Source of the DNA: Deltaproteobacteria bacterium
GTDB taxonomy: Bacteria > Desulfobacterota > Syntrophia > Syntrophales > UBA8958
Direction of reading: 5' to 3'
DNA: 32,960 nt
Assembly (NCBI GenBank): GCA_029561465.1
Contig: JAKQIZ010000017.1
Location: 1 to 32,960 of the forward strand
The translations under genes were made by a program, and so were the position numbers. Under the pieces are notes generated by a model. The model saw only the letters and a list, made by a program, of their open reading frames with translations, did not search any database and had not been told where the DNA came from. Positions 2,277 through 31,821 of the stretch are shown here, one piece after another (position 1 is the stretch's first letter; the number at the start of each line of letters is the position of its first letter).

Positions 2277-3632
2277 ATGTTAAGGAAGCTTGCGTCGTTT
2301 TTCACCTATTTAATGCGTCATTATCTTCCCGACGCCTACTTGTTCGCCATCCTGCTCACGTTCATTTCGGCGATCCTGGCCCTGATCTTCACGCCGGCGG
2401 ACATCATGAAGGTGATCACCACCTGGGGCGGTGGATTTTATGGGATCATTGCCTTTGCCATGCAGATGATCCTGGTCCTGGTGACGGGATATATCCTGGC
2501 CCTGACGCCGCCCATGAAGAAGGTCCTCGACTGGGTAGCGACAAAGGCGGACACCCCCGTCAAGGGGGCGATGATCGTCGCCTTCGTCGGAGGGGTCGGC
2601 TCCTGGATCAACTGGGGCTTCGGCCTGATCTTCGCGGGGCTCCTGGCTCTCGAGGTGGCCCGGCGGACGAAAAAGGCCGACTTTCCCGTCCTCATCGGGG
2701 CGGCCTACAGCGGCTTCATCTGCTGGCATATGGGTTTCTCCAGTTCCATCGGTCTGCTGATCGCCACTCCTAAACATCCTCAGAACCTCATCGAGAAAAC
2801 CACTGGTCTGGTGGTTCCCGTGGCCGACACGATCTTTGCCCCCTGGAACCTGATCCCGGCGGCGATCATCATCCTGGGCCTTCCCGTCCTCTTTTATCTG
2901 ATTCATCCGAAGGAGGAGGAAACGATCAGCATCTCCCCGGATCGTCTCAAGGAGATGGAGGACCAGACGGTTAAAGTGGAGAAACCGGCCAGTCCCACCC
3001 TGGCGGAGCGTATCGACCACAGCTATGCGGTCAACATGATCTTCGCCGCCATGGGCATCTTCTATCTTTTCCTCCACTTCTCCAGCAAGGGCCTCGACCT
3101 CAACCTCAACATCGTCATCTTCATCTTCTTTATCGCCGGTGTTATCCTCCACGGCAAGCCGATCAACTATGTGAGCGCTATGAACATCGCCATCCGTTCC
3201 GCCGGCGGGATCGCCCTGCAGTTCCCCCTCTACGGCGGCATCATGGGGATCCTCATCGGCACCGGCCTGGCCAAGGTCATTGCCGGCTGGTTCGTCGCCG
3301 TCTCCACGCCGGAGACCTTCTACATGTTCCAGTTCTGGGGGGCCGGGGTGGTCAACCTCTTCGTCCCCTCCGGCGGCGGTCAGTGGGCCGTCCAGGGCCC
3401 CATCACCATCGAGGCGGCGAAGATGATGAATATCGATGCCGTGAAATCGGCCATGATGGTGGCCTGGGGCGACCAGTGGACCAACATGATCCAGCCCTTC
3501 TGGGCCCTGCCGCTCCTGGGTCTGGCGGGACTGTCCGCCAAGGACATCATGGGCTATACCACCATGACTTTACTCTGGGCCGGGCTGGTGCTGAGTGGTT
3601 TTGCCCTCCTCATCGGCTTCGGGGTGATGTAA
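2277..3632 (+). CDS. atoE: Short-chain fatty acid permease (AtoE/SCFA transporter family)
   Basis: An inner-membrane permease for short-chain fatty acids such as butyrate, acetoacetate or crotonate. The 451 residues are strongly hydrophobic, with about ten or more predicted membrane segments and a charged cytoplasmic loop near residues 215-245. The most diagnostic stretch is near residue 360: FWGAGVVNLFVPSGGGQWAV followed by QGP, the family's conserved core. ATG 2277 has an excellent ribosome binding site, AAGGAGGT at 2263-2270. The gene is monocistronic, bounded by a leader terminator upstream and a strong hairpin at 3655-3690 downstream. No atoDAB CoA-transferase or thiolase genes are adjacent. 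In a syntrophic or fermentative anaerobe it may import substrate or export product; the direction cannot be told from sequence. Confidence 0.92.
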   Translation: MLRKLASFFTYLMRHYLPDAYLFAILLTFISAILALIFTPADIMKVITTWGGGFYGIIAFAMQMILVLVTGYILALTPPMKKVLDWVATKADTPVKGAMIVAFVGGVGSWINWGFGLIFAGLLALEVARRTKKADFPVLIGAAYSGFICWHMGFSSSIGLLIATPKHPQNLIEKTTGLVVPVADTIFAPWNLIPAAIIILGLPVLFYLIHPKEEETISISPDRLKEMEDQTVKVEKPASPTLAERIDHSYAVNMIFAAMGIFYLFLHFSSKGLDLNLNIVIFIFFIAGVILHGKPINYVSAMNIAIRSAGGIALQFPLYGGIMGILIGTGLAKVIAGWFVAVSTPETFYMFQFWGAGVVNLFVPSGGGQWAVQGPITIEAAKMMNIDAVKSAMMVAWGDQWTNMIQPFWALPLLGLAGLSAKDIMGYTTMTLLWAGLVLSGFALLIGFGVM

Positions 3633-4573: not shown

Positions 4574-5524
4574 ATGTCGATTGCCACGAAAAGCGTTGCC
4601 GTCGTATTTCCTGGTCAGGGGGCTCAAAGGCCGGGAATGGGAAGGGACTTCTGCGAAGAACTGAGTATCTGCCGTCATACTTATGAAGAGGCTGCCGACG
4701 CCCTGGGATGGGATGTCGGCGCGATCTGTTTCGGAACCGATGATCGTCTGGACCGAACGGAATATACCCAGCCTTGCCTCCTAACCACGGAAATCGCCAT
4801 GTTCCGGGGGCTGCAAGAACGGTTCGGACTATCCCCCACATACTTTGGCGGCCACAGCCTTGGGGAGTTCTCCGCCCTGGTGGCGGCCGGGGTCATGCCG
4901 CTGGGTGACACCGTACGGGTCGTGCATGCCCGGGGGCGCCTCATGCAGGAAGCCGTGCCGCCGGGGCTGGGAGGCATGGCGGCGGTTATTGCCGATGATC
5001 TCGATGCCGAGGAGTTGGAGGAAGTCCTGACGGACCTGCCGGTGGACATCGCCAATGTCAATTCGAACCGCCAGATCGTCATCAGCGGCCATACCGGAGC
5101 TCTGCCCGACGCGGCGGCGCGGATCACCGACATCCTGGGTGCGGATGCCGCCTGCCGCTTCGTTCCCCTCAACGTCAGCGCCCCGTTCCACAGCCGGTTC
5201 ATGCGTCCCGTGGAACGGGAGTTTTCCAATGTTCTCAAAGGTATCCGTGATGATGTGGACGCTCGGAAGGCGGTAGCGGTGACGTCCAATTACACGGGCC
5301 GTTTCCATACCCGCTACCCCGAAGATCTCTTCTGTTACCTTACCTATCAGTTGGGAAGCCGGGTCCGCTGGCGGGAGAACATGGAACTCATCGCCGCCGA
5401 AGCCGACACAATCTATGAGATAGGCCCGGGTCGGCCATTGCGAGATTTCTTCAAGACCCTGGGGGTCAACTGCCTCTCCGTGGTCACCCTTTCCGGAGCG
5501 GCGCGGATTTTCGGGAGCAACTGA
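4574..5524 (+). CDS. fabD: Malonyl-CoA:ACP transacylase (FabD-like), first gene of the cluster
   Basis: Transfers malonyl groups from CoA to the acyl carrier protein. At 316 residues it matches FabD. It shows FPGQGAQRPGMG near the N-terminus, YTQPCLLTTEIAMF, the nucleophile motif GHSLGEFSALVAAG with Ser95, a conserved Arg about 25 residues later (HARGRLMQEA), and the catalytic His206 in APFHSRF. The C-terminal YEIGPGRPL segment is close to the family's usual IGPGKVL. ATG 4574 is preceded by AAGGAGA at 4559-4565. It begins a run of ten same-strand genes with an acyl carrier protein, so a dedicated loading enzyme is the likely role, although it might also serve housekeeping fatty acid synthesis. 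A different extender than malonyl cannot be excluded. Confidence 0.9.
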   Translation: MSIATKSVAVVFPGQGAQRPGMGRDFCEELSICRHTYEEAADALGWDVGAICFGTDDRLDRTEYTQPCLLTTEIAMFRGLQERFGLSPTYFGGHSLGEFSALVAAGVMPLGDTVRVVHARGRLMQEAVPPGLGGMAAVIADDLDAEELEEVLTDLPVDIANVNSNRQIVISGHTGALPDAAARITDILGADAACRFVPLNVSAPFHSRFMRPVEREFSNVLKGIRDDVDARKAVAVTSNYTGRFHTRYPEDLFCYLTYQLGSRVRWRENMELIAAEADTIYEIGPGRPLRDFFKTLGVNCLSVVTLSGAARIFGSN

Positions 5525-5527
5525 GCC

Positions 5528-6727
5528 ATGGATTTAAATTTGTCGGCAACGCAAGGCATGTATGTAGAAACGGTGCGGAGATTCGTGAAAACGGAGATCC
5601 TTCCCGGTCTCCTGGAGGTTGAGAGAAAGCACGCTTTCCCCTTCTCCGTAGTTCGCCGGGCCTGGGAACTGGGAATCCTCAACCTGAGCATCCCGGCAGT
5701 GATCAAAGGCTTCGAGTTGGATGCCCTGTCCTCCGCCCTGATCATCGAGGAACTCGCTTATGGAGATTCCGGGATCGCCACCTCCGCCATGTGCAATGAC
5801 CTGGCCAATGCCGTCATCGCCCAACACGGCATACCTTCCCAGCAGGAGGCCTTTTTGCGTCCCTTTGTGGAAGAACCCCTGCTGGCATCCTTTTGTCTAA
5901 CGGAACCGGGGGCAGGTTCGGACAACAGCGCCATGACCACGTTCATGGTCCGGCGGGAGGATGGATCATATCTGCTCAACGGCACCAAGTGCTTCATAAC
6001 CAACGCGTCCTTCGCCTCCCAGTTCACCGTTTTCTGTAAGGTAGGCAAGCCAGCGGGGAATTTCATGGCTTGTGTCATCGTTCCCGTTCCACCTCCCGCG
6101 CTGGAAGCTATTGCCGGGGGCTTTCCGACGGGGAGGGAAATCTTCCTGCCGGCCGGGGGGTGTATCGCTGTGGGCAAGCCCGAGGACAAGCTGGGACAGC
6201 GCTTATCCAATACCGCGGCGGTCACCTTTGAAGAAGTGGTTGTTACCCCGGAACAGATCATCGGCGACCGGCGCCGGGGATTTCAGTACATAATCGACGT
6301 CCTCGATTATGCCCGCCCCATGGTGGCGGCCATCGGAGTCGGTCTGGCCCGCCGGGCCCTGGCGGTGACCATCGACTATACCCGGGAACGTCGGCAGTTC
6401 GGCCAGCGAATCTGCGACCTCCCGGTGGCCCGGGAAACGCTGACGGCGATGTGGAAAAAGGTGGAACTGGCTAAGCTCGCCCTCATAAAGGCCGCTGTCA
6501 CCCTGGATGAGAAAGGATCGGACCGGGGGTTATACGCCTCCCTGGCCAAGAACGCCGCCGCCGAGGCGGCCATTTTCTGCGCCAATGAAGGGCTCCATCT
6601 CCATGGCGGCTACGGATTCATGAACGAATATGAGATAGCCAAGCTGGCCCGGGATGCCCATATCATCGATATATACGAGGGGGTGCGGGAGGTGCAGAAC
6701 ATGATCATCGGTCGGGAGATCTGTTGA
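5528..6727 (+). CDS. Acyl-CoA dehydrogenase family flavoprotein, possibly acting on acyl-ACP
   Basis: An FAD enzyme of the acyl-CoA dehydrogenase fold, 399 residues, full length. The N-terminal helical domain is followed by the FAD/substrate segment FCLTEPGAGSDNSAM, the mid strand domain with GTKCFITNASFA, the arginine segment YTRERRQFGQRI, and the C-terminal LHLHGGYGFMNEYEIAKLAR then DIYEGVREVQ, where Glu384 of YEG is the expected catalytic base. It lies three bases after the malonyl transferase stop and just before KAS III, with no ETF or beta-oxidation genes nearby. Related enzymes in natural-product clusters desaturate carrier-bound substrates (for example PltE/RedW on prolyl carriers and TcsD in FK506 biosynthesis). 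Desaturation of an ACP-bound chain is therefore a reasonable inference, as is use as an unconventional enoyl reductase. Confidence 0.88.
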   Translation: MDLNLSATQGMYVETVRRFVKTEILPGLLEVERKHAFPFSVVRRAWELGILNLSIPAVIKGFELDALSSALIIEELAYGDSGIATSAMCNDLANAVIAQHGIPSQQEAFLRPFVEEPLLASFCLTEPGAGSDNSAMTTFMVRREDGSYLLNGTKCFITNASFASQFTVFCKVGKPAGNFMACVIVPVPPPALEAIAGGFPTGREIFLPAGGCIAVGKPEDKLGQRLSNTAAVTFEEVVVTPEQIIGDRRRGFQYIIDVLDYARPMVAAIGVGLARRALAVTIDYTRERRQFGQRICDLPVARETLTAMWKKVELAKLALIKAAVTLDEKGSDRGLYASLAKNAAAEAAIFCANEGLHLHGGYGFMNEYEIAKLARDAHIIDIYEGVREVQNMIIGREIC

Positions 6728-6729
6728 CC

Positions 6730-7854
6730 ATGCTTTATCTCCACGGTTTGGGACATTTTCATCCGGAAAACGTCATCACCAACCGCTTCCTGGCGGACCT
6801 GGACATCGGGACGAGTGACGAATGGGTTCTGGAGCGGGTGGGGATCCGGGAGCGGCGCACCTCCCTGGAGCTTGACTACATTCGGGAGACAAAGAATCAG
6901 GATCCCCGGGGGGCCTCCGAGGCAAGCCGTTACAACAATGCCGAGACCGGAGCGGCGGCGGCCCGTCAGGCCATGCGCCAGGCGGGGATTGCCGCGGCGG
7001 ACGTCGGTTTGGTCATTTCCGGCAGCTCCGCTCCCGACCATGTCACCCCCTCCGAGGCAGCAACCGTGGCGGCGGAACTGGGTATCGAGGCGCCCTGCCT
7101 GGATATCAACGCCGCCTGCGCCACCTTTGGCGTCCAATTGTCTTTTCTGGATCGGATGAGGCCGGAAACTCTGCCATCCTTCATCCTCGTCGTCAACCCG
7201 GAGAATCTCACGCGCTGTGTCGATTATGCGGATCGCAATACAGCCGTCCTTTTCGGGGATGGGAGCGCCGCCGCGGTTGTTTCGGCAAAGGAACCGGCAA
7301 GGTTGCGGCTCATGGACTGCCACTGCGCCTCGCAACCGTCAGCCTGGCAGAAGGCAGTCATTCCCCGGATGGGATATTTTCACCAGGAAGGAAATGCCGT
7401 CCAGGGTTTCGCCATCCGCAAGATGACCGAAGCCGTCCGGATCCATCGGGAGCGCTGGAAGAGTGGCCTGTCTTCACCAAACGCATGCCGTTCAGGTTTG
7501 AAAGGGGCGGCAGACCGGGTGGAAAAGCGGGTCGATGCGGATAGCGGGTCGGGTGAGACCATGGTGCTGACGGCTGAGGGAGAAGTTGCCGCCGGCGGCA
7601 ACGGCCGACGTCTGGTCTTTATCGGCCATCAGGCGAACCTCAGTGTGCTGAATACCGTCTGTGAACGTTCAGCGATATCCGATGACTGCCACTGGCGTAA
7701 TGTGGCCCTTTTCGGCAACACGGGAAGTTCCGGCGCCCCCGCCGTTATGAGCCAGCGTCAAAAGGATCTCCGGCCGGGGGATGTGCTGATCATGGCGCTG
7801 GTCGGCGCGGGCCTGACGTGGGCGACGCTGGTCTGGCAGGCCGGCGAGTGTTGA
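6730..7854 (+). CDS. 3-oxoacyl-ACP synthase III-type condensing enzyme (KAS III)
   Basis: A thiolase-fold condensing enzyme of the FabH class, which normally starts chains by joining an acyl-CoA to malonyl-ACP. The triad is intact: Cys130 in INAACATF, His300 in FIGHQANL and Asn330 in FGNTGSSGAP. The N-terminus MLYLHGLGHFHPENVITN follows the usual FabH pattern. At 374 residues it is longer than the roughly 320 of FabH; the surplus is an insert at about residues 235-285, rich in charged and small residues. ATG 6730 is preferred, with GGGAG at 6714-6718 about 11 bases before; a TTG at 6724 that overlaps the preceding stop is the alternative. The divergence and the insert suggest a non-acetyl primer, but this is inference. 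Confidence 0.87.
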   Translation: MLYLHGLGHFHPENVITNRFLADLDIGTSDEWVLERVGIRERRTSLELDYIRETKNQDPRGASEASRYNNAETGAAAARQAMRQAGIAAADVGLVISGSSAPDHVTPSEAATVAAELGIEAPCLDINAACATFGVQLSFLDRMRPETLPSFILVVNPENLTRCVDYADRNTAVLFGDGSAAAVVSAKEPARLRLMDCHCASQPSAWQKAVIPRMGYFHQEGNAVQGFAIRKMTEAVRIHRERWKSGLSSPNACRSGLKGAADRVEKRVDADSGSGETMVLTAEGEVAAGGNGRRLVFIGHQANLSVLNTVCERSAISDDCHWRNVALFGNTGSSGAPAVMSQRQKDLRPGDVLIMALVGAGLTWATLVWQAGEC

Positions 7855-7913
7855 AATCTTCGTTCGCGACCGGGAAGGCTCTAAGTGGCCACAGGCATTG
7901 AGGACAGAGCAGG

Positions 7914-8498
7914 ATGATGTTGCCTTATCAGAAGTTTATGGAGAAAAGTGACTTCGATCTACCCGAGTTGATCGCATTTTCGTATGGAAAGCTCGTGACC
8001 GATCCCCCCGCCGGTTTCGATGCCCGCCTGCCGGCCCCGCCATTCCTGATGATCGACCGCATCCTGATTCTGGAGGCGGACGGAAAGCGGGGAAGAATCG
8101 TGGCGGAGAAAGATATCCAGATCGACGCCTGGTATTTCCAGTGCCACATGCCCGGCGATCCGGTCCAGCCGGGATGTCTGGGAGTGGATGCCATCTGGCA
8201 GCTCCAGGGCTTCTACGGGGTCTGGCGGGGCGGCCTGGGGGCCGGACGGGCCCTGGGCTGCGAGGGCGTGAATTTCACGGGACAGGTGCGGCCTTATCAC
8301 CGTGTCGTCCGTTACGAGATAGCGATCCGGAGATTTACCGCCCTTGCTGAATCCGGGGCCAGCGTCATCATCGGCGACGGCGCCATTTCGGTAGACGGCG
8401 AGCTTATTGCCGAGGTCCATCAGGCCCGGACCGGCCTGTTCCGTGGTATTGTCTATGGCGACTATCCCTGGCTGCCTCCGGCCACGATGCAGACGTGA
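7914..8498 (+). CDS. fabA: FabA-type 3-hydroxyacyl-ACP dehydratase/isomerase
   Basis: A hotdog-fold dehydratase of the FabA class. FabA proteins dehydrate 3-hydroxyacyl-ACP and can isomerise trans-2 to cis-3 decenoyl-ACP, the branch point to unsaturated chains in anaerobic synthesis. The catalytic pair is visible: His78 in CHMPGDPVQPGCLGVDAIWQ and Asp92 in the same motif, 14 residues apart as in Escherichia coli FabA (His70/Asp84). The later GRALGCEGVNFTGQVRP block is also FabA-specific and absent from FabZ. The protein has 194 residues, about 20 longer than usual, with a C-terminal tail after the GLF motif. Two tandem ATGs (7914, 7917) follow GAGGACAGAG. A second, FabZ-type dehydratase is encoded downstream, so this one probably has a specialised substrate or isomerase role. 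Confidence 0.92.
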   Translation: MMLPYQKFMEKSDFDLPELIAFSYGKLVTDPPAGFDARLPAPPFLMIDRILILEADGKRGRIVAEKDIQIDAWYFQCHMPGDPVQPGCLGVDAIWQLQGFYGVWRGGLGAGRALGCEGVNFTGQVRPYHRVVRYEIAIRRFTALAESGASVIIGDGAISVDGELIAEVHQARTGLFRGIVYGDYPWLPPATMQT

Positions 8499-8607
8499 GG
8501 AACATGCCTTTTCCGGCGGATGGGATGAGAGAATATGCATTGGCGATCTCTGGAGAACATGGATAACCGGTTGTCGATTTCGACCGGAATGAAAGGGCAG
8601 AGAAGCA

Positions 8608-9336
8608 ATGGAAGATAAAAGAGTCGCCCTCGTAACCGGGGGAGGCACGGGAATCGGCGCCGCCTGTGTCCGCTCCCTGGCGGCGACAGGATTTCTGGTA
8701 GGCATCCATTACCACCGGAGTGAAGAAGGGGCGCGGGCCGTGCTGGCCGAGACGGGGGAAGGTCTGCTCCTGCCGGGGGATCTGACCCGCAGCGAGGATA
8801 TAGACGCCCTGGTGGAACAACTAAAGTCAGCCACCGGACGTCTGGACGTCCTGGTCCATAATGCCGGTGTTTCCCTCAACGCCGACATCAACGCTATGCG
8901 TCTGGAACAGTTCGATGCCCAGCGCCTCCTTGCCAGAGGGGTTTGGTATTTGACGAAGCGGGTCCTACGTCAGTTCATGCTCCGAAGGAATTCCGGAAGG
9001 ATCATCACTATATCCAGTGTCGTTGGCCATACCGGTAACGGCGGCCAGATCCCCTACACCATGGAAAAAGCCGCCCTGGATGCCTTTACCAAATCCCTGG
9101 CCAAAGAGCTTTCCGGTCGTAATATCCTTGTCAATGCCGTGGCCCCCGGCTTCATCGATACGGCGATGACGGCTTCCCTGCCTGAGGTGGCTCGGGAGCG
9201 GATCATGGCCAATATCCCCCTGCAGCGCATGGGACGCCCGGAAGAGGTGGCGGAGGTCGTGACCTTTCTCGCCACGGCCGGCACCTACATCACCGGTTCG
9301 GTCATCCATGTCAACGGAGGCCTCTATGGCGGCTGA
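8608..9336 (+). CDS. fabG: FabG-type 3-oxoacyl-ACP reductase (SDR) with replaced catalytic Asn
   Basis: A short-chain dehydrogenase of the FabG class, 242 residues, expected to reduce 3-oxoacyl-ACP with NADPH. It shows GGGTGIG near residue 11, HNAGVS, the catalytic Ser137 (ISSVVGHTGNGGQ), Tyr150 and Lys154 (YTMEK), and a C-terminal PGFIDTAMT and ITGSVIHVNGG typical of FabG. The tetrad Asn, Asn110 in the E. coli enzyme, is not present: aligning NLSSVFRLSK with LARGVWYLTK puts Leu108 there. The early GIHYHRSEEGA segment recalls the FabG2-type reductases of aryl polyene clusters (from memory, unchecked). ATG 8608 follows GGGCAGAGAAG. The next gene overlaps its end by 11 bases, so the two are translationally coupled. 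Confidence 0.9.
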   Translation: MEDKRVALVTGGGTGIGAACVRSLAATGFLVGIHYHRSEEGARAVLAETGEGLLLPGDLTRSEDIDALVEQLKSATGRLDVLVHNAGVSLNADINAMRLEQFDAQRLLARGVWYLTKRVLRQFMLRRNSGRIITISSVVGHTGNGGQIPYTMEKAALDAFTKSLAKELSGRNILVNAVAPGFIDTAMTASLPEVARERIMANIPLQRMGRPEEVAEVVTFLATAGTYITGSVIHVNGGLYGG

Positions 9337-9811
9337 TCAGACGATGCGGGAGACAATCCTGGCGGCGGTGCCCCAGCAGCCACCCTTTCGCTTCATCGAG
9401 GAGATCCGGGAACTGGACGAAGCGGGGATCGTGGGCTCCTATCGTTTCCGCCGGGAAGAGTATTTCTACCGGGGACACTTCCCCGGCCAGCCGGTGACCC
9501 CCGGGGTGATCCTTATCGAGGCCATGGCCCAGACGGGGGTGGTGGCTCAGGGCCTCTATCTTTCGCTGCTCAAGTCCGGGGCGGCCCTCAGGGACTTGAG
9601 GAAGATCACCACCCTGTTCACCCTGGCCGAAGAAGTGGAGTTCCTGGATATCGTGGCCCCCGGAGAGGAAATTGTCTTTCGGGGCCGTACGATCTATTTC
9701 CGCCGGGGCAGCCTGAAATCCGCCGTAACGGGAGAGCGGAAAAACGGGCAAATTGTATGCCGGGGGATCTTGGCGGGGGCGGGGATTGATAGGTCAGCCG
9801 GTTGTGAATGA
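9326..9811 (+). CDS. fabZ: FabZ-type 3-hydroxyacyl-ACP dehydratase
   Basis: A second hotdog dehydratase, of the FabZ class, 161 residues. The signature is YRGHFPGQPVTPGVILIEAM, with His51 and Glu65 as the catalytic pair. The N-terminal PPFRFIEEI matches FabZ's PFLLVD strand. ATG 9326 is chosen over ATG 9308 because GGAGG (9316-9320) sits five bases before it; this gives an 11-base overlap with the reductase gene and translational coupling. The C-terminus runs about 15 residues past the usual end. Together with the FabA-type enzyme it gives the cluster two distinct dehydratases, and no enoyl-ACP reductase is present to follow them. Confidence 0.9.
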   Translation: MAADQTMRETILAAVPQQPPFRFIEEIRELDEAGIVGSYRFRREEYFYRGHFPGQPVTPGVILIEAMAQTGVVAQGLYLSLLKSGAALRDLRKITTLFTLAEEVEFLDIVAPGEEIVFRGRTIYFRRGSLKSAVTGERKNGQIVCRGILAGAGIDRSAGCE

Positions 9812-9917
9812 AGGGTAAGTAAATAGAGGCCGCATGTTCCGGACGGGTGATGATCGGGATGGTAAGAGACCGTATCCCTTGCGAATTGCGAAAAGCAGAT
9901 AGGAGCGTATTTTGGTT

Positions 9918-11198
9918 ATGAACAAGAGAGTGGTGGTTACCGGTATGGGAGTGACCGCCCCGAATGCCCACGGATTGGACGACTTTACAACCGCCCTAAG
10001 AGCGGGACGTTCGGGGATCCGCCATATCAAGGAGCTGGAGGCGCTCAACTTCGCTTGTCAGGTAGGCGGCATTCCGGAAAATTTCGATGCGGTGCGCCGG
10101 AGCTATTTCGATCACGAAAAGCTCATGTCCATCAACGACAATATCGGATACGCCTCCGTATCCGCCATCGATGCCTGGCGTGACGCCGGTTTTGAGGTTC
10201 CCGAAGGGGACGGTGAGGACGTGGATTGGGATACCGGGGTGATTATCGGTTCCGGCATCGGCGGGATGGACACCATCGCCCGGACGGTAGTGCCCATGGT
10301 CAATGACGGCAAAGTCCGCCGCATGGGCAGCCGGATTGTGGAACAGGTGATGAACAGCGGAACCAGCGCCCGCATCGCCGGCCTCCTGGCCCTGGGCAAC
10401 CGGGTGACATCCAACTCCTCGGCCTGCTCCACGGGCAACGAGGCGATCATCGAAGCGGCTTGGCGGATCCGGGCGGGTCTGGCGAAGCGGATGCTCGCCG
10501 GGGGCTCCGAAGGCGCCTCGCCCTATATTTGGTCCGGCTTCGACGCCATGCGGGTGATCTGCCGGAAGTTCAATGACGATCCGGAGCGGGCCTCCCGCCC
10601 CCTGAGCGCCAGTGCCGCCGGTTTTGTTCCCGGCGCCGGGGGCGCCGTTCTGGTCCTGGAGGACCTGGAGACAGCCCAAAGGCGGGGGGCGCGGATCTAT
10701 GCCGAGGTGGCCGGCGGGGCGGTGAACTGCGGCGGCCAGCGCCGGGGCGGTTCCATGACGGCCCCCAATCCGGAGGGGGTCCGCCGGTGCATCCATCAGG
10801 CCATGGCCGACGCCGCTGTTTCGCCCCACGAGATTCAGGCGATCAACGGCCACCTGACGGCTACCTATGCCGATCCCGTGGAGGTGAAGAACTGGGCCGC
10901 GGCCCTAAATCGAACCCCGGCGGATTTTCCGTTCATAAATTCCACCAAATCCATGATCGGCCATTGTCTGGGGGCGGCGGGGGCTATCGAGTCAGTCGCC
11001 GTGATATTGCAGCTCTACGGCGGCTTTCTCCATCCTTCGGTCAACAGTGAGGATGTCCATCCCGAGATCGAGGCCTTTGGGGACAGCATCCCCCAGCAGG
11101 CGCTGGACATGCCGGATTTACGCGTCATCGCCAAGGCGGGCTTCGGTTTCGGCGATGTGAACAGTTGCCTGATCTTCAGGAGCTGGGAGGGGGCATGA
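9918..11198 (+). CDS. Divergent 3-oxoacyl-ACP synthase I/II (FabB/FabF-like)
   Basis: An elongating condensing enzyme with the complete Cys-His-His triad: Cys170 in NSSACSTGNEA, His312 in INGHLTATYADP and His349 in KSMIGHCLGAAGA. The N-terminus MNKRVVVTGMGVTAPNAHG is typical. The surrounding motifs are unusual: the first His block reads NGHLTAT rather than NAHGTST, and the C-terminal glycine motif is FGFGDVNSC rather than FGFGGTNA. It is therefore an active-looking but divergent member, not a chain-length factor (the Cys is present). AGGAG at 9901-9905 lies 6 bases before a TTG (9912) and 12 before ATG 9918, so the start may be two codons earlier. With 426 residues it is normal length. It probably elongates a specialised chain on the downstream ACP. 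Confidence 0.9.
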   Translation: MNKRVVVTGMGVTAPNAHGLDDFTTALRAGRSGIRHIKELEALNFACQVGGIPENFDAVRRSYFDHEKLMSINDNIGYASVSAIDAWRDAGFEVPEGDGEDVDWDTGVIIGSGIGGMDTIARTVVPMVNDGKVRRMGSRIVEQVMNSGTSARIAGLLALGNRVTSNSSACSTGNEAIIEAAWRIRAGLAKRMLAGGSEGASPYIWSGFDAMRVICRKFNDDPERASRPLSASAAGFVPGAGGAVLVLEDLETAQRRGARIYAEVAGGAVNCGGQRRGGSMTAPNPEGVRRCIHQAMADAAVSPHEIQAINGHLTATYADPVEVKNWAAALNRTPADFPFINSTKSMIGHCLGAAGAIESVAVILQLYGGFLHPSVNSEDVHPEIEAFGDSIPQQALDMPDLRVIAKAGFGFGDVNSCLIFRSWEGA

Positions 11199-11361
11199 TA
11201 GGGCGCGGAGACCGGAACTAATTGATTTTTATGTATTACGTATCAAACACGGAATGACGGAAGGGCGATTGCGGCACTTCGGCAATTGGCTCGGGGGATA
11301 ATAGACGGCGGCGGTTTAGCCGCTGCCGGGAATAAATCATAAAAAATGTAAGGAGAGGAAT

Positions 11362-11610
11362 ATGGAAGAGAAGGAAATATTCAAGGAAATGATCGATATC
11401 TTGAGGATCTATGCCAAGGACAAAGCAGGTTTGGATACGGCGACCATGGCCACCCACATCCTCGATGACCTTAAGGTGAATTCGGCACGTCTGGTGGATG
11501 TCATCATCAAATGCGAAGACGTCTTCGGGATCACCATCGAAGACGACGAGGCCGACAAGATTCGCACTATCGGCGATGCCGTGAATCTCATCAAGAACAA
11601 GCTCGGATAA
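11362..11610 (+). CDS. Acyl carrier protein of the cluster
   Basis: An 82-residue acidic four-helix carrier protein. The phosphopantetheine attachment residue is Ser41 in DDLKVNSARLVDV. The usual DSL motif reads NSA here, which marks it as distinct from housekeeping AcpP. The second half (KCEDVFGITIEDDEADKI then IRTIGDAVNLI) is classic for the family. ATG 11362 has a strong AAGGAGAGG. A 163-base gap before it contains a loose TTGAT/ATCAA inverted repeat (11222-11245) and might hold an internal promoter. Its companions are the condensing enzymes upstream and its own phosphopantetheinyl transferase downstream. Confidence 0.92.
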   Translation: MEEKEIFKEMIDILRIYAKDKAGLDTATMATHILDDLKVNSARLVDVIIKCEDVFGITIEDDEADKIRTIGDAVNLIKNKLG

Positions 11611-11670
11611 TGGGGGTACGATGGTGCCGTTGATTGGATGATAAGAGACGATAGCAATGCTGCAAGCTGA

Positions 11671-12519
11671 ATGATGAGTACGGTGGCTGGAGTTCATTAT
11701 AATCTATGGCGGCAGGAGGCCATGGGATTGCTCACTGTAGCGGTCGTCGGCCCCCTCTATTTTCTTTTTTTACGATGCCGGGGATACCGTCTCCGGGATT
11801 TGGATGCCACACGTCGTCACTGGGCGGAGTTGCGGCGCAGACACCCCGGCCCCTGGCTGATCTGTGGAAATCACCTGACCCTCATCGATTCCATGCTCCT
11901 GACCTATGGCCTCATGTCCCTGAGCTCTCATTTCAAAGAATTTCGCGCCCTTCCCTGGAACCTCCCCGAAAGGGCCAATTTCCAGAAACAGCTCTGGAAA
12001 GGGCTGCTCTGCTATCTGGCCAAGTGCATTCCGGTCAGCCGGGGCGGGGACAGGGAGGAGATGCAAACAACCCTGGGGAAATGCAACTGGGTTCTGCAAA
12101 ATAATCGGGTGTTGATGATCTTCCCGGAGGGGGGGCGTTCCCGTGCGGGCAGGATCGATCAGGAGAATTTCTCTTACGGCATCGGACGCTTTCTCCAGGA
12201 CCACCCGTCATGCCGGGTGCTCTGTGTCTATCTCCGGGGAGATCGTCAGGATGCTTACAGTGATCTTCCGGCCAGGGGGGAGTCATTTACCATCACCATC
12301 GATGTCTTTGAACCCCGGCGACCGGTAAAGGAGGGGCTTCGAGGACAGCGGGAGCTGGCGGGACAGATTGTTTCCCACCTGGCGCAAATGGAGGAGGAAT
12401 ATTTTGCTGGTCGTCGGCAACGACATTGTGGATTTGACCGATCCGTACAACCAGGGAAAGCTTCGGGACCGGCGCTTCCGCGGCCGGGTCTTCACGGCAG
12501 CGGAAGAACGGCGGATTGA
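11671..12519 (+). CDS. PlsC-type (LPLAT) acyltransferase
   Basis: A member of the lysophospholipid acyltransferase family, which moves an acyl chain from ACP or CoA to a hydroxyl acceptor at the membrane. Motif I is HLTLID (His68, Asp73; the HX4D pair) and motif III is FPEGGRSRAGRI at about residues 151-162. A hydrophobic segment near residues 21-33 (TVAVVGPLYFLFL) may anchor it. The chosen start ATG 11671 lacks a clear ribosome binding site; ATG 11722 has AGGAGG but only two bases away. The last 38 codons overlap the next gene out of frame (12404-12519). PlsC-like enzymes occur in aryl polyene and related clusters as well as in lipid synthesis, so the acceptor could be glycerol phosphate or something else. 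Confidence 0.87.
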   Translation: MMSTVAGVHYNLWRQEAMGLLTVAVVGPLYFLFLRCRGYRLRDLDATRRHWAELRRRHPGPWLICGNHLTLIDSMLLTYGLMSLSSHFKEFRALPWNLPERANFQKQLWKGLLCYLAKCIPVSRGGDREEMQTTLGKCNWVLQNNRVLMIFPEGGRSRAGRIDQENFSYGIGRFLQDHPSCRVLCVYLRGDRQDAYSDLPARGESFTITIDVFEPRRPVKEGLRGQRELAGQIVSHLAQMEEEYFAGRRQRHCGFDRSVQPGKASGPALPRPGLHGSGRTAD

Positions 12520-13186
12520 TGCTTCACCGCGTCCCGATGTAACGCTCTGGGCGTTCTGGGCCGCCAAAGAGTCGGCATTCAAGGCGGCGGTAAAGCTGAA
12601 ACCGGGATCGGGATTCATCCCAAAAGAATACATGGTTGTCAAGTATGAGATGGATCTCCCCGCGGCGGGGCTGTCTTCGCTTCCCGACGATTATCCCATC
12701 ATGGGGCTGGATGGCGAAAAAGGAACGGGGGAGGATCGAAAGCAGGAGCAGACCGTGGTTTTGTACTCGGGAGAGACAGTGGCTGCTTCCCCTCGTAAAT
12801 CCGGTTTGATCGCCACTCCGGTGGGATCCATGCCTTTGGAATTCACAATTTCCGAACAATGGATTCACTGTCTTGCGTTGGGGCGCCGGGGATGTGAAGA
12901 TACCGCCACCCCTGACAGGACGATTCATGTTGTGATGGAAAGTCGCGGGATGTGCATTGAACCGTCCGCCGCGGTACGGCGGGCCGCAGTTCATCATCTG
13001 GCCGATATTTTCCGGACTTCCCCGTATTACCTGGAAATCCGCCGGGCCAGGACTTCTTATGGTTATGGGGGGCCGCCCCAGGTATTTCTCGCTGGCCGGC
13101 AGACCGACGTCGATATCAGCCTAACCCATGACGGCTCCTATATTGCTTTTGCCCTCGTTACACCTGAAACGTCAACGGATCAATGA
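12404..13186 (+). CDS. 4'-phosphopantetheinyl transferase
   Basis: Transfers phosphopantetheine from CoA to the conserved Ser of carrier proteins. The N-terminus reads LVVGNDIVDLTDP, containing the Mg-binding Asp, and WAAKESAFKAA gives the Glu/Lys motif of the superfamily. The start is TTG 12404, because GGAGGAGG (12390-12397) sits six bases before it and the conserved GNDIVD block begins just after; longer versions of the frame have no support. At 260 residues it is about twice the size of AcpS, with a mid-protein insert of little conservation at roughly residues 75-130 and a C-terminal region ending DISLTHDGSYIAFAL. It overlaps the acyltransferase gene by 116 bases. It most likely activates the cluster's own ACP. 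Confidence 0.85.
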   Translation: MLVVGNDIVDLTDPYNQGKLRDRRFRGRVFTAAEERRIDASPRPDVTLWAFWAAKESAFKAAVKLKPGSGFIPKEYMVVKYEMDLPAAGLSSLPDDYPIMGLDGEKGTGEDRKQEQTVVLYSGETVAASPRKSGLIATPVGSMPLEFTISEQWIHCLALGRRGCEDTATPDRTIHVVMESRGMCIEPSAAVRRAAVHHLADIFRTSPYYLEIRRARTSYGYGGPPQVFLAGRQTDVDISLTHDGSYIAFALVTPETSTDQ

Positions 13187-28119: not shown

Positions 28120-29373
28120 ATGAAGATAGAGATATGCGCTGCGTCTGGTTGTGCCCGGGCGATAATCATGATCACCTTTGTCGTGGGATGCTTGTTGTCC
28201 GGCTGTGCCGCCGGGCCGCCACGCCTCCAGCCCTCGGGACTCAATACCGTCTTCGCCGGAAAAGACGGCATGCCTTTCGCTGACTATATCAAACAGACCC
28301 GGGCAATGATGCTCCGAGCCCGGGTGGATATTAATGACGGCAACCGGGAAATGGTCCTCAACGCCAACCTGCCCTTTGAACTCGCGCCGGACACCAACCT
28401 TTTCCCGCTAGGGAAGGACGGGAAACACCGCCGGGGCGCCCTTCTCGTCCACGGACTCTCCGACTCGCCGTATATGCTGCAACCCCTGGCCCGCCACCTC
28501 CGGAACCGCGGTTTTCTCGTCCGGACGATCCTCCTCCCCGGGCATGGGACGGCTCCCGGAGACCTGCTGGAGGTGCACTGGCAGGAATGGAGACGGGCCG
28601 TGCAATATGGGATCGACGGCATGAAGGGAGAGGTTGAGGAACTCTACCTAGGCGGCTTTTCCACCGGCGCCGCCCTGGGCGTGCTGTCCGTCTTGAGCGG
28701 TGAAGACATAAAGGGATTGATTCTCATTTCTCCGGCCCTGGGGGTGAAAGACCGGCGTGTGGCGTTGGCCGGGGCGCTCCGGAGTGTGAGGGACTGGGTC
28801 GGCGACATCCGGGACGATGTGGATTACGCGAAGTATGAAACCTTTGCGGTGAATGCCGCCTATCAGATCTACCTTCTTACCGGGGAGATAGACAGGCTTC
28901 TCGCTGCGGGTAAACGTATTGAAGTCCCCGTATTCGCTGCCTTATCCGCGGAAGATGTCACCGTCGACGCCGGGCGGGCCCAAGAGGTTTTTCGGCGTTA
29001 CACAACCTCGGAACATAACGTCGTGATCCTGTATGCGCGAGATCCGCGGCCGGAGATATGTGCCGGATCAGGAACGATTTATTGCGAGGGGAGTTATCTG
29101 CCGGAGCTGCGGATACTGGATTTCTCCCATGTCGCCCTGCCGATGCCTTGCGATGATCCCCATTACGGTCTGCGGGGAGGATACAAAAGCTGCCTCCATT
29201 ACGGAGCCGATCGAGAAAAAAGAGGGATTTGCCGGAATGACGACACGATTTGGCAGGGAGAGATATCCGACGCCAATCTCCAGTCCTTCACCCTGCGTCG
29301 TCTGACCTGTAATCCCAAATTCCCTGGTATGCGGGAGCGGCTCGATCAATTCATCAGAAACGTTGCCCGATAA
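28120..29373 (+). CDS. Lipoprotein alpha/beta-hydrolase (serine esterase/lipase-like)
   Basis: A membrane-attached serine hydrolase, 417 residues. The N-terminal hydrophobic segment ends in the lipobox LLSGC, so it is probably anchored by a lipid. The fold shows the oxyanion strand LLVHGLSDSPYM, the nucleophile elbow GGFSTGAALG with Ser181, the likely acid Asp279 in SAEDVTVD, and His337 in DFSHVALPM, giving a complete catalytic triad. The closest general resemblance is to carboxylesterases and monoacylglycerol lipases; the substrate is unknown. ATG 28120 follows AAGGAGG (28102-28108) by 11 bases; the frame is open further upstream but without support. Its 3' end overlaps the convergent patatin gene by 20 bases. 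Confidence 0.82.
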   Translation: MKIEICAASGCARAIIMITFVVGCLLSGCAAGPPRLQPSGLNTVFAGKDGMPFADYIKQTRAMMLRARVDINDGNREMVLNANLPFELAPDTNLFPLGKDGKHRRGALLVHGLSDSPYMLQPLARHLRNRGFLVRTILLPGHGTAPGDLLEVHWQEWRRAVQYGIDGMKGEVEELYLGGFSTGAALGVLSVLSGEDIKGLILISPALGVKDRRVALAGALRSVRDWVGDIRDDVDYAKYETFAVNAAYQIYLLTGEIDRLLAAGKRIEVPVFAALSAEDVTVDAGRAQEVFRRYTTSEHNVVILYARDPRPEICAGSGTIYCEGSYLPELRILDFSHVALPMPCDDPHYGLRGGYKSCLHYGADREKRGICRNDDTIWQGEISDANLQSFTLRRLTCNPKFPGMRERLDQFIRNVAR

Positions 29374-31726
29374 ACAGACCCAGGGTTTGGTGTCCTCCCT
29401 CGGCGAACCCGTAAGCAATATAGGCCGGCCCGATGAAGGTGTCCGCCCCGATGAAGGCGCTGCCGGCGTAAATAAGAGAACCCAGAGTGATGTCGCTCCG
29501 TTTCTGCCAGGCCTTGCCTGCTTCCACGGAGAAGCCCAGATAAAGGGTGGTGCGAAAATCGCCGAGGCCGGCGGCCCCCATATTCCGGAAGCAGACGATC
29601 CGCGCCAGGCCCACCTCCTGACCCGACAGCTCATCGGTCAGGTACCCGGAGAGATTCAAGAACCCGCCAATACTGTACGAATCCTGAATCTTGCTGTCGC
29701 CGTCCAGGGTGCCACCGTAGATGATTCCAGGGATGAAGGTCAGGCGTCCCCAGGTCTTGGCGCCCTGGATGTTGGCATTGATCCCGGCGACCTTGTAGTC
29801 GGAACCCATTTCCGGGAGATTGAACTGGCTGGTCACGTTGGCGCTTAAGCCCCGCTGGGGAAAATTGAAGTTGTCCATGGTGTCGTAGGTCAAAGATGAA
29901 AAGAAACCGCCGATATTGAAACTGTCCGTGGGCAGGTCGGCGGCCCCGACATTGACCCGGTAGGCGCCGTAGCCGCGGCGGATGCCCAGGCGCAACTCCC
30001 CCCAGTTGCCAAACTGCCGACCAAGATCCAGACCCCCTGAAAATTCCTTGAGCCGATATTTAGCCATGATATCCGCTGTATATTCCGGGCTGTAGATGTA
30101 GGCATTCCATTCCCGGTATTCGAGCCGGGGGGCGAAAAAATAATGCGTGGAGTAATCAATGGGCTGGTAAAATTCCGAAAACAAGCGTGTCGTTTCGCCG
30201 ATCTGCAATTCATTCCGCCATTCGGCGCCCAAGGTGTTGATCTCGGTCTGGGTAATCCGCGTGCCGACGGTATAGGAACTGGAGCCTTTGAAATTGTCCG
30301 CCAGACTGATGTTGAAGCGCATGTAAGTGGGACCCCACGATTTTTCAATGGGATTGAAAACCAGGCCGGTTTTGTTCCTTCTCCTTTCGAGATGAAAATC
30401 GACCCGTTCAAAGGTGTCCAGACCATAAAGGCGGGTTATATCCTTTTCGAGGGTTTCTATGTTCAGTTTTTCCCCCGCCTTGGTTTCGATCTGGGCCTCG
30501 AGTACCCGGGGAGAAATCTTGGTACGGTTTTCCGCCCTCGTCTTGACACCCGGCAAGTGTGCCAGTTTGCTTCCCAGGTCGATCTCCTTTCCTTCGCTGC
30601 CGGTTTTAACCGACGGAAGGGGAGATGCCTGGGCGGGGGACGCTGATTTGAATTCCACCTTCACGTAATCAATGACCGGCGGCTCGGAGGGCTGCCGCCG
30701 CTGATGGGCCAGATAAACCTGGAATTTTTCCGGGGCAATGGAAAGACCGGCAAGGCGTTCCTTCATTTTGCCCACCGCCGCCGCGCCGATCTTCATAGCC
30801 GTTTCGGTTTTAGAAAAATCCGTGGTTCCCAGCGGGCCGAGATCGGGCTGGATGAGGATGTCATCCGGCTTCAGGGTCCTTAGTTGGGCCTGGACATTTC
30901 TCTGGATGAGGATGGTCATGACCTGGGCGGTGATACTGGCAGTGGAATTGAGCCCCTCCCTGGTCCTGAGGGGGGTGCCGATATCGACGACGATGATGAT
31001 GTCGGCCCCCATGGCGCGAGCCACGCTTACCGGAAGGTTGTTGGCGATTCCGCCGTCCACGAGCATCCGTCCGTTGATCTCCATGGGTACGAAGATCCCC
31101 GGAATGGACATGCTCGCCCGGAGTGCCTCCGCCAGATCTCCCTTACCCAGAACAACGGTGTCACCGGTTTCGATGTCCGCCGCCACAGCCCGAAAGGGAA
31201 TCTTGAGGTGATCGAAATCCTTGATGTCCGCGGTGTGCAGCAGGAGTTTCTTCAGGAGGATATTCAGATTCTGTCCCTGGACCAGGCCTCGGGAGGTGGC
31301 CAGGCGGCCGTTTCGGACCCCGAGGTTAAAGTCGATTTTATAATCCATGGAGTCCTGCTTGCGGCGGAAGGAGAGTTTATCCACCGTCTGCTTATCCGTG
31401 AAGGCCTCATGCCAAGGGATGCCGGTTACAAGTTTTTCCAACTCCTCCGGGGAGGAACCCGCCGCGTAGAGTCCGCCGACTATGGCCCCCATGCTGGTCC
31501 CCGCGATACAATGGATGGGCACCCGCATTTCCTCCAGGACCTTCAGCACCCCGATATGGGCAATCCCCCGGGCACCGCCGCCGCTCAATACCAGACCGAT
31601 CCGAAGCGGCCGCGGCTCTTCGGCTCCGGTCATGGAAGGTGCAATGATGTTTAAACAAAGGAAAAGAAAGATGAAGATCGCCCGGAAGGGCAAAGAAAAC
31701 GGCCGGCGTTTTCGCGGAGGCATCAT
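29354..31726 (-). CDS. Patatin-like phospholipase with POTRA/Omp85 barrel (PlpD-type outer membrane protein)
   Basis: An outer membrane protein combining a patatin lipase with a BamA/TamA-type beta-barrel, the architecture of type Vd autotransporters such as PlpD. Residue numbers count from GTG 31765. After a signal sequence (about 25-48) the patatin domain has SGGGARGIAHIGVL, the nucleophile Ser91 in GTSMG, and the catalytic Asp237 in DGGIANNLP. A region near residues 405-460 fits a single POTRA domain (QIETKAGEKLNIETLEKDI). The remaining half consists of alternating strands ending in a terminal aromatic (FIGQRF), as expected for barrel proteins. The start is uncertain: ATG 31726 and GTG 31765 are both possible and neither has a good ribosome binding site. 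It lies downstream of the RRM gene on the same strand. Confidence 0.88.
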   Translation of the reverse strand: MMPPRKRRPFSLPFRAIFIFLFLCLNIIAPSMTGAEEPRPLRIGLVLSGGGARGIAHIGVLKVLEEMRVPIHCIAGTSMGAIVGGLYAAGSSPEELEKLVTGIPWHEAFTDKQTVDKLSFRRKQDSMDYKIDFNLGVRNGRLATSRGLVQGQNLNILLKKLLLHTADIKDFDHLKIPFRAVAADIETGDTVVLGKGDLAEALRASMSIPGIFVPMEINGRMLVDGGIANNLPVSVARAMGADIIIVVDIGTPLRTREGLNSTASITAQVMTILIQRNVQAQLRTLKPDDILIQPDLGPLGTTDFSKTETAMKIGAAAVGKMKERLAGLSIAPEKFQVYLAHQRRQPSEPPVIDYVKVEFKSASPAQASPLPSVKTGSEGKEIDLGSKLAHLPGVKTRAENRTKISPRVLEAQIETKAGEKLNIETLEKDITRLYGLDTFERVDFHLERRRNKTGLVFNPIEKSWGPTYMRFNISLADNFKGSSSYTVGTRITQTEINTLGAEWRNELQIGETTRLFSEFYQPIDYSTHYFFAPRLEYREWNAYIYSPEYTADIMAKYRLKEFSGGLDLGRQFGNWGELRLGIRRGYGAYRVNVGAADLPTDSFNIGGFFSSLTYDTMDNFNFPQRGLSANVTSQFNLPEMGSDYKVAGINANIQGAKTWGRLTFIPGIIYGGTLDGDSKIQDSYSIGGFLNLSGYLTDELSGQEVGLARIVCFRNMGAAGLGDFRTTLYLGFSVEAGKAWQKRSDITLGSLIYAGSAFIGADTFIGPAYIAYGFAEGGHQTLGLFIGQRF

Positions 31727-31821
31727 AGGGGTCGGAATATTCCTTCTTTTCTCTTTCCCGGCCACGATTAGCTGACCTGTGACGTTTTGTCAATCCGGAC
31801 GTTTACGCCGCGGAAGCAGGA

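Follow-up and report, generated by a model that had tools for sequence, protein, structure and literature searches.

A Candidate Self-Contained Type II Fatty Acid Synthase of Syntrophales with a Proposed Acyl-CoA Dehydrogenase-Fold Enoyl Reductase

Introduction

Of all steps in bacterial fatty acid synthesis, none has more unrelated replacements than that of the enoyl reductase, which is also a drug target. Here, we examine a block of ten plus-strand genes (positions 4574-13186) on contig JAKQIZ010000017.1, which belongs to a metagenome-assembled genome (MAG) from the Syntrophales, an order of anaerobic bacteria. The whole stretch of DNA that was analyzed, 32,960 nucleotides, is called the window below. 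One of the ten genes encodes a protein of the acyl-CoA dehydrogenase (ACAD) family, which normally serves fatty-acid breakdown. We will argue that the block is rather probably a type II fatty acid synthase that is complete and self-contained, with this ACAD acting as its enoyl reductase, and that in the Syntrophales it is probably the main one. We know of no description of an ACAD-fold enoyl reductase acting on chains bound to the acyl carrier protein (ACP). Neither such an enzyme nor the block was found described in the titles and abstract beginnings of the literature matches listed, a coverage that leaves out most subscription journals; in these matches, the statement of a preliminary description of this DNA that no described pathway has exactly this gene set still stands.

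Gene Content of the Block

Searches with Pfam and NCBIfam assign the ten genes (Table 1) to the families named in the preliminary description, which had also placed them all on one strand. It had called several of them overlapping or coupled. This holds for FabD/ACAD and ACAD/KASIII, with gaps of 3 and 2 bases, and for FabG/FabZ and LPLAT/PPTase, with overlaps of 11 and 116 bases, but not for FabA/FabG, FabZ/FabF and FabF/ACP, where the spacers are 106-163 bases. The ten genes are likely to form a single transcript, to judge from this layout.

Table 1. Genes of the block, with the evidence for each assignment and the conservation of catalytic residues among aligned loci. The starts of KASIII, FabZ, FabF and PPTase are the likely ones after refinement.
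Gene product	Position	Strand	Evidence
FabD, malonyl-CoA:ACP transacylase	4574..5524	+	PF00698; TIGR00128 244.9 bits, under its cut-off of 260.9
FabD active site			Ser95 kept in 50/51 aligned loci, the remaining one a gap
ACAD-fold flavoprotein, proposed enoyl-ACP reductase	5528..6727	+	Pfam ACAD domains; Glu384 in 68/68 loci
KASIII (ketoacyl-ACP synthase III, FabH-like)	6730..7854	+	PF08545/PF08541; Cys-His-Asn kept
FabA, dehydratase/isomerase	7914..8498	+	NF003509 186 bits, cut-off 124; His and Asp in 39/39
FabG, ketoacyl-ACP reductase, Y-x3-K	8608..9336	+	TIGR01830 230 bits, under cut-off; Ser-Tyr-Lys in 76/76
FabZ-like dehydratase	9326..9811	+	PF07977 51 bits; His 79/79, Glu 78/79
FabF-like ketosynthase, motif NGHLTAT	9918..11198	+	PF00109/PF02801; Cys-His-His in 80/80; clade separate from canonical FabF
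ACP, Asn-Ser-Ala triad	11362..11610	+	PF00550
LPLAT-type (lysophospholipid acyltransferase) acyltransferase, HX4D	11671..12519	+	PF01553; His and Asp in 78/78
PPTase (phosphopantetheinyl transferase)	~12404..13186	+	PF01648; Asp, Lys, Glu in 78/78; likely TTG start, longest frame from 12368

The self-contained type II set described earlier, with its own carrier, PPTase and acyltransferase, was thus found in full, with the catalytic residues kept. Among the models shown for the ten genes, FabA alone passes a curated NCBIfam cut-off, and the enzymes of the block are therefore divergent. A Pfam scan of 29 frames of the window showed one ketosynthase of the KAS I/II type and no chain-length factor or MMPL, ammonia-lyase, glycosyltransferase or radical-SAM family. 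The preliminary description had noted these absences and had set the block apart from aryl polyene, flexirubin and ladderane clusters; their defining genes were not found in these frames. None of the enoyl reductases FabI, FabK, FabL or FabV was found among the ten genes with Pfam and NCBIfam, and the ACAD occupies the slot.

The top NCBIfam model for the ACAD is acryloyl-CoA reductase, at 254 bits against a cut-off of 640. Its structure model (mean pLDDT 85, 37 sequences) has the fold of medium-chain acyl-CoA dehydrogenase (MCAD), with a TM score of 0.88 on the query, which confirms the fold only and says nothing on ACP binding. Glu384 aligns with the position of the catalytic base of MCAD. 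Compared to the pig MCAD, there are about 20 additional residues, mostly between 173 and 210, and it is conceivable that this stretch would be a docking place for the ACP. ACADs that act as reductases exist, namely the acryloyl-CoA and caffeyl-CoA reductases, and CarC is among the PDB matches of the block protein.

Distribution and Conservation

The block recurs across the Syntrophales, in Syntrophus, Smithella and many MAGs, with its catalytic residues kept. FabA is present in 121 of the 149 genomes of the order, in some of them outside the cluster, and of 20 stretches fetched around FabA, 15 contain the full set of ten in order (a contig end truncates one of the other five, two are short of one gene, and two contain FabA alone). 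A scan of GTDB contigs with a ketosynthase profile confirmed 349 relatives, 80 of which were kept for the counts; their titles name Syntrophus, Smithella, Syntrophaceae, Syntrophales, Syntrophobacterales, Deltaproteobacteria and similar.

Both flanks are available for 46 of these 80 loci, the other 34 being dropped for want of a flank. ACAD, FabZ, FabF, ACP, LPLAT and PPTase are each present in all 46, FabG in 45, KASIII in 41, FabD in 40 and FabA in 24, and the complete set of ten in 17. The ACAD is likewise found at every one of the 55 loci that have enough sequence upstream of the ketosynthase (25 of the 80 have too little). Such recurrence, together with the constant gene order of the complete loci, goes beyond chance. 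Among the catalytic residues checked, the only change in the aligned loci is a replacement of Glu by Ala in one FabZ, and a few rows are gapped. Long open frames had hinted at a fusion of KASIII and FabA; this was rejected, as none of 60 adjacent pairs forms one stop-free frame.

A number of loci show variations. FabD and the ACAD are separated by a carboxyltransferase-like gene in some Smithella-type clusters (L140:3677-5149 and L141:7354-8796). In L140 it is of the PycB/OadA/5S type, and the start of the L141 sequence is similar; such a gene might feed malonyl units. In two other clusters, in which LPLAT, FabA and FabG were not found, the halves of the PPTase are split by a long stretch without Pfam match (L151:37-1608, 523 residues; L152:10094-12085, 663 residues). 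In the cluster of genome G011 (L142), FabA and FabZ were both not found. The window KASIII carries about 45 extra residues (about residues 243-292), which are also present in the close relative L056 and absent in 13 relatives aligned and in L057-L059.

A Reductase of Another Fold at the Same Slot

A search for relatives of the block also covered 394 genomes from the phylum with a completeness of 85% or more, with E 1e-150 as the limit for a match to the ketosynthase profile. Matches were obtained in 23 genomes, 16 from the Syntrophales and seven from other Desulfobacterota. In tblastn searches with the window proteins, all seven outside loci have FabF, FabZ and ACP, six have PPTase (with a PPTase-like frame in the seventh), five have FabD, five LPLAT, four FabG, four KASIII (and a fifth a weak match), and three FabA. 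The ACAD was found in none of the seven. At the slot that it holds in the Syntrophales, all seven have a short-chain dehydrogenase/reductase (SDR) of about 312 residues, which in five loci is flanked by FabD and the next fab gene and, in the two whose stretch showed no FabD, closely precedes KASIII or FabG.

In NCBIfam, FabL is the best model for this SDR in four of the five scanned and the second in the fifth, always under the cut-off, and among the PDB matches 2,4-dienoyl-CoA reductase comes first, with FabL among the first five. All seven proteins carry Y-x6-K, like E. coli FabI, while the FabG of the block has Y-x3-K. In the five such outside genomes that were searched whole, the SDR is single-copy and located in the cluster. 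Conversely, it has no match in 13 of 14 Syntrophales genomes, the remaining one (G016) giving a weak partial match. The same query gave nothing over 67 bits against 108 Syntrophales loci, which do not equal 108 species, as the sets L035-L054 and L056-L135 overlap in source genomes. The 13 of these loci that lack an ACAD match are two with FabA alone (L046, L047) and 11 contigs ending near the ketosynthase. A similar 304-residue Y-x6-K protein occurs in G166, a genome without the cluster. A second enoyl reductase beside the Smithella-type clusters was considered as well and rejected, since the extra downstream SDR is Y-x3-K in the four loci read.

The ACAD and the SDR thus exclude each other at one slot of a conserved operon, which points to a functional replacement. 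Because the SDR bears the enoyl-reductase signature Y-x6-K, the ACAD would most simply be an enoyl-ACP reductase, an assignment based on gene order.

Carrier Protein and Ketosynthase

The ACP of the block has its serine within Asn-Ser-Ala. This is the case in all 79 Syntrophales loci with an ACP match (one of the 80 has none) and in all seven relatives outside the order, while canonical ACPs in four Syntrophales genomes carry Asp-Ser-Leu. In a tree of 35 ketosynthases, the cluster enzymes form one clade (100/99), to which neither the four canonical FabFs nor the one other ketosynthase belongs. The motif NGHLTAT is found in 79 of the 80 ketosynthases from GTDB contigs, where the motif itself served as the search pattern, and in only three of the seven outside loci; it was therefore rejected as a mark of the whole family and marks the Syntrophales instead.

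Other Fatty Acid Synthase Genes

Whole-genome searches covered 14 Syntrophales and, from the rest of the phylum, eight genomes. A strong canonical FabZ, by which we mean a match at E 1e-35 or better that is neither FabA nor inside a giant polyunsaturated fatty acid (PUFA)-synthase-like frame, is present in none of the 14 Syntrophales vs seven of the eight others. The two dehydratases of the cluster are the sole members of their family in six of the 14; others have weaker members, G014 and G082 have a separate FabA besides the cluster, and in G011 no member was found. The FabD of the cluster is the sole one in seven genomes and its KASIII in three. The FabI-query matches that were read, ten loci in eight Syntrophales genomes, are all Y-x3-K; three genomes gave no match, and those in G069, G082 and part of those in G003, G009, G011 and G012 were left unread. 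FabK does not exceed its cut-off in any of the 22 genomes.

One of the Syntrophales genomes, G036, is a single contig of 3,179,300 bases. The searches returned no second FabD, no Y-x6-K FabI, no FabL-like match and only trivial FabK matches in it, and the ten-gene block holds nearly all of the synthase steps found there. The canonical region of the present MAG (G000) reads, by Pfam, ribBA, ribE, nrdR, deaminase, glyA, rpiB, fabF, acpP, yceD, gltX, with no plsX, fabH, fabD or fabG between yceD and acpP. In the ancestral region of G036, fabF is followed by an acpP frame, yceD and gltX, as in the present MAG, and G012 additionally retains FabD there. As the remnants differ among these three genomes, the old operon appears to have been eroded to differing degrees.

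Some further synthase-like loci were observed. In the present MAG (L156:293-3878, contig C29) and in G026 (L158:3680-7538), a second KASIII and a FabD flank a 548-residue frame of no recognized kind, and the G026 locus also holds an ACP. A locus of G036 (L159:12515-19001) holds an ACP and a ketosynthase amid aminotransferase III, aminotransferase I/II and AAA_26 genes, which are presumably bioA, bioF and bioD; a pimeloyl route is a possible function of this locus, going by its neighbors.

Proposed Pathway and Alternatives

The proposal that the block is a fatty acid synthase with the ACAD as enoyl reductase starts from what is directly observed, namely the gene set, its kept order and catalytic residues, the exclusion between ACAD and Y-x6-K reductase, and the scarcity of other fatty acid synthase genes. 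In the proposed pathway, the PPTase would activate the unusual ACP of the Asn-Ser-Ala type, FabD would load malonyl units and KASIII would prime the synthesis. Elongation by the FabF-like ketosynthase would be followed by reduction by FabG and dehydration by FabA and the FabZ-like enzyme, FabA also having the capacity to introduce a cis double bond. The resulting trans-2-enoyl-ACP would then be reduced by the ACAD-fold flavoprotein instead of FabI, FabK or FabL, and the LPLAT would finally hand the chain to a glycerolipid.

It is important to point out that a number of results weigh against this proposal. The activities, the direction of the ACAD reaction, the electron donor, the acceptor lipid, the product and the role as main synthase are all deduced from sequence. 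FabA is missing from 22 of the 46 two-flank loci, so cis-unsaturation cannot be the general duty of the block, and no member of the FabA/FabZ family was found in G011, a genome 96% complete. The relatives outside the Syntrophales are partly rearranged, and their SDR could be a different Y-x6-K enzyme, for example a dienoyl reductase. Their ketosynthases nest within those of the Syntrophales at two places of the tree, which therefore leaves the direction of the swap between ACAD and SDR unfixed. Further matches to FabD occur in seven and to KASIII in 11 of the 14 Syntrophales genomes, the second KASIII-FabD pair of the present MAG among them. G014 has a Y-x6-K FabI-like gene elsewhere in its genome, with a similar, unread one in G082, and the FabV search was uninformative, as the control genomes gave no match either.

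Three further results, the last two of which also weigh against the proposal, favor a different explanation. In this one, the block would make a special lipid or polyketide-like chain as a second and dedicated synthase, in parallel with a housekeeping synthase that uses acpP-fabF and unrecognized enzymes. Canonical FabZ is present in four of the five cluster-bearing genomes outside the Syntrophales, the canonical acpP-fabF is kept at its ancestral place in G000, G036, G012 and G051, and FabK homologues below the cut-off occur in most of the Syntrophales searched, with up to 308 bits in the present MAG. The divergence of the ACP and ketosynthase and the presence of an own PPTase fit this explanation as well. 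Still, we consider it unlikely, if worth keeping in mind, since all 14 Syntrophales are without a strong canonical FabZ and G036 is without another FabD, Y-x6-K FabI or FabK.

Another option is that the ACAD is an acyl-ACP dehydrogenase that adds a double bond, the enoyl reductase being another, unrecognized enzyme. ACADs oxidizing carrier-bound substrates are known, and prolyl-carrier dehydrogenases are among the NCBIfam and PDB matches of the block protein. For TamT, the predicted role is the dehydrogenation of a C12 chain bound to a carrier (PMC5939613). This option appears improbable to us, because the sister clusters hold a Y-x6-K reductase in that very slot and no other class of enoyl reductase was found in G036, where the FabV search was uninformative. 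The last option is a cluster that makes a polyene, aryl-polyene-like or other, and does without enoyl reduction, as the two dehydratases, the LPLAT, the own ACP and the lack of FabI in the window might suggest. It is highly improbable given the single Cys-His-His ketosynthase without a chain-length-factor partner, the absence of a transporter or glycosyltransferase among the window frames scanned, and the enoyl reductase signature of the sister clusters.

The fatty acid synthase proposal changes the earlier picture in several respects. The ACAD, which had been listed in addition to the synthase steps, is probably not an extra, as it occupies the slot of the FabL-like reductase of other Desulfobacterota. 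The description of the block as dedicated and polyketide-like is weakened, since in the Syntrophales most of the fatty acid synthase genes that the searches returned belong to the block, while the odd ACP and the FabZ of outside genomes speak for a dedicated role; a block with the ACAD could run the full reducing fatty acid cycle, which leaves less reason for a polyketide-like product. The case that these are the only fatty acid synthase genes of the organism had been raised too, and in G036 it largely applies, though not wholly, as acpP-fabF survives and other genomes keep spares. The gene order, which had been suggested as something to look for in other Desulfobacterota, is identical in all 17 complete Syntrophales loci, with the seven relatives outside the order partly rearranged.

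A broader proposal, which we advance tentatively and stop a little short of endorsing, is that the Syntrophales make their membrane fatty acids via the ACAD-fold enoyl-ACP reductase, and that an electron-transferring flavoprotein could bring in the electrons from acyl-CoA oxidation that are hard to dispose of, so that the synthesis would serve as an electron sink. If true, an ACAD-family flavoprotein would add a new class of enoyl reductase, and biosynthesis would be tied to the energy bottleneck of the syntrophs, which feed methane formation. What could have been annotated as a cryptic natural-product cluster would then be corrected to probable core metabolism of an order.

Surroundings of the Block

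Eight flanking genes were tested and are seen at no more than three of 87 cluster loci, many of which are short-flanked. The flanks were accordingly rejected as members of the system, and the ten genes look like the unit. Directly upstream of the block is a short-chain fatty acid transporter gene (2277-3632), found near the cluster elsewhere only at L056. Further away, on the minus strand (29357-31765), a patatin-like phospholipase is fused to POTRA and Omp85-type domains and resembles a self-secreting lipase.

Comparison with Known Systems

In the canonical type II fatty acid synthase, the genes are arranged as plsX-fabH-fabD-fabG-acpP-fabF, with fabZ and fabI, fabK, fabL or fabV elsewhere. 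Like this system, the block has a carrier and assigns malonyl transfer, priming, elongation, ketoreduction and dehydration to discrete proteins, with catalytic residues kept; with the ACAD as enoyl reductase, every enzymatic step would be represented. It differs in having the ACAD in place of an enoyl reductase of known class (FabI, FabK, FabL, FabV), in the inclusion of PPTase and LPLAT within the operon, in the Asn-Ser-Ala vs Asp-Ser-Leu of its ACP, and in the separate clade of its ketosynthase. The FabL-type reductase of the sister Desulfobacterota clusters sits at the same slot, but with its SDR fold and Y-x6-K it is unrelated to the ACAD. The acryloyl-CoA and caffeyl-CoA reductases and other ACADs, on the other hand, share family and fold with the block protein, which is distinguished from them by its extra residues and its location in a fatty acid synthase operon.

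Flexirubin clusters contain ammonia-lyase and dialkylresorcinol genes, and ladderane clusters radical SAM and desaturase-like genes. Unlike these, the block has no such families around it among the 29 window frames scanned, and its FabG scores 179 bits with the FlxB model, for which the cut-off is 340. With aryl polyene clusters it shares a fatty acid synthase-like composition, with two dehydratases, a ketoreductase, an ACP and an acyltransferase. Aryl polyene clusters are described (PMC8041823) as having a heterodimer of chain-length factor and ketosynthase, two ACPs and no enoyl reductase. The block, by contrast, has no second ketosynthase, chain-length-factor partner or second ACP. As to enoyl reduction, the ACAD is the proposed reductase, and the sister clusters carry the FabL-like SDR.

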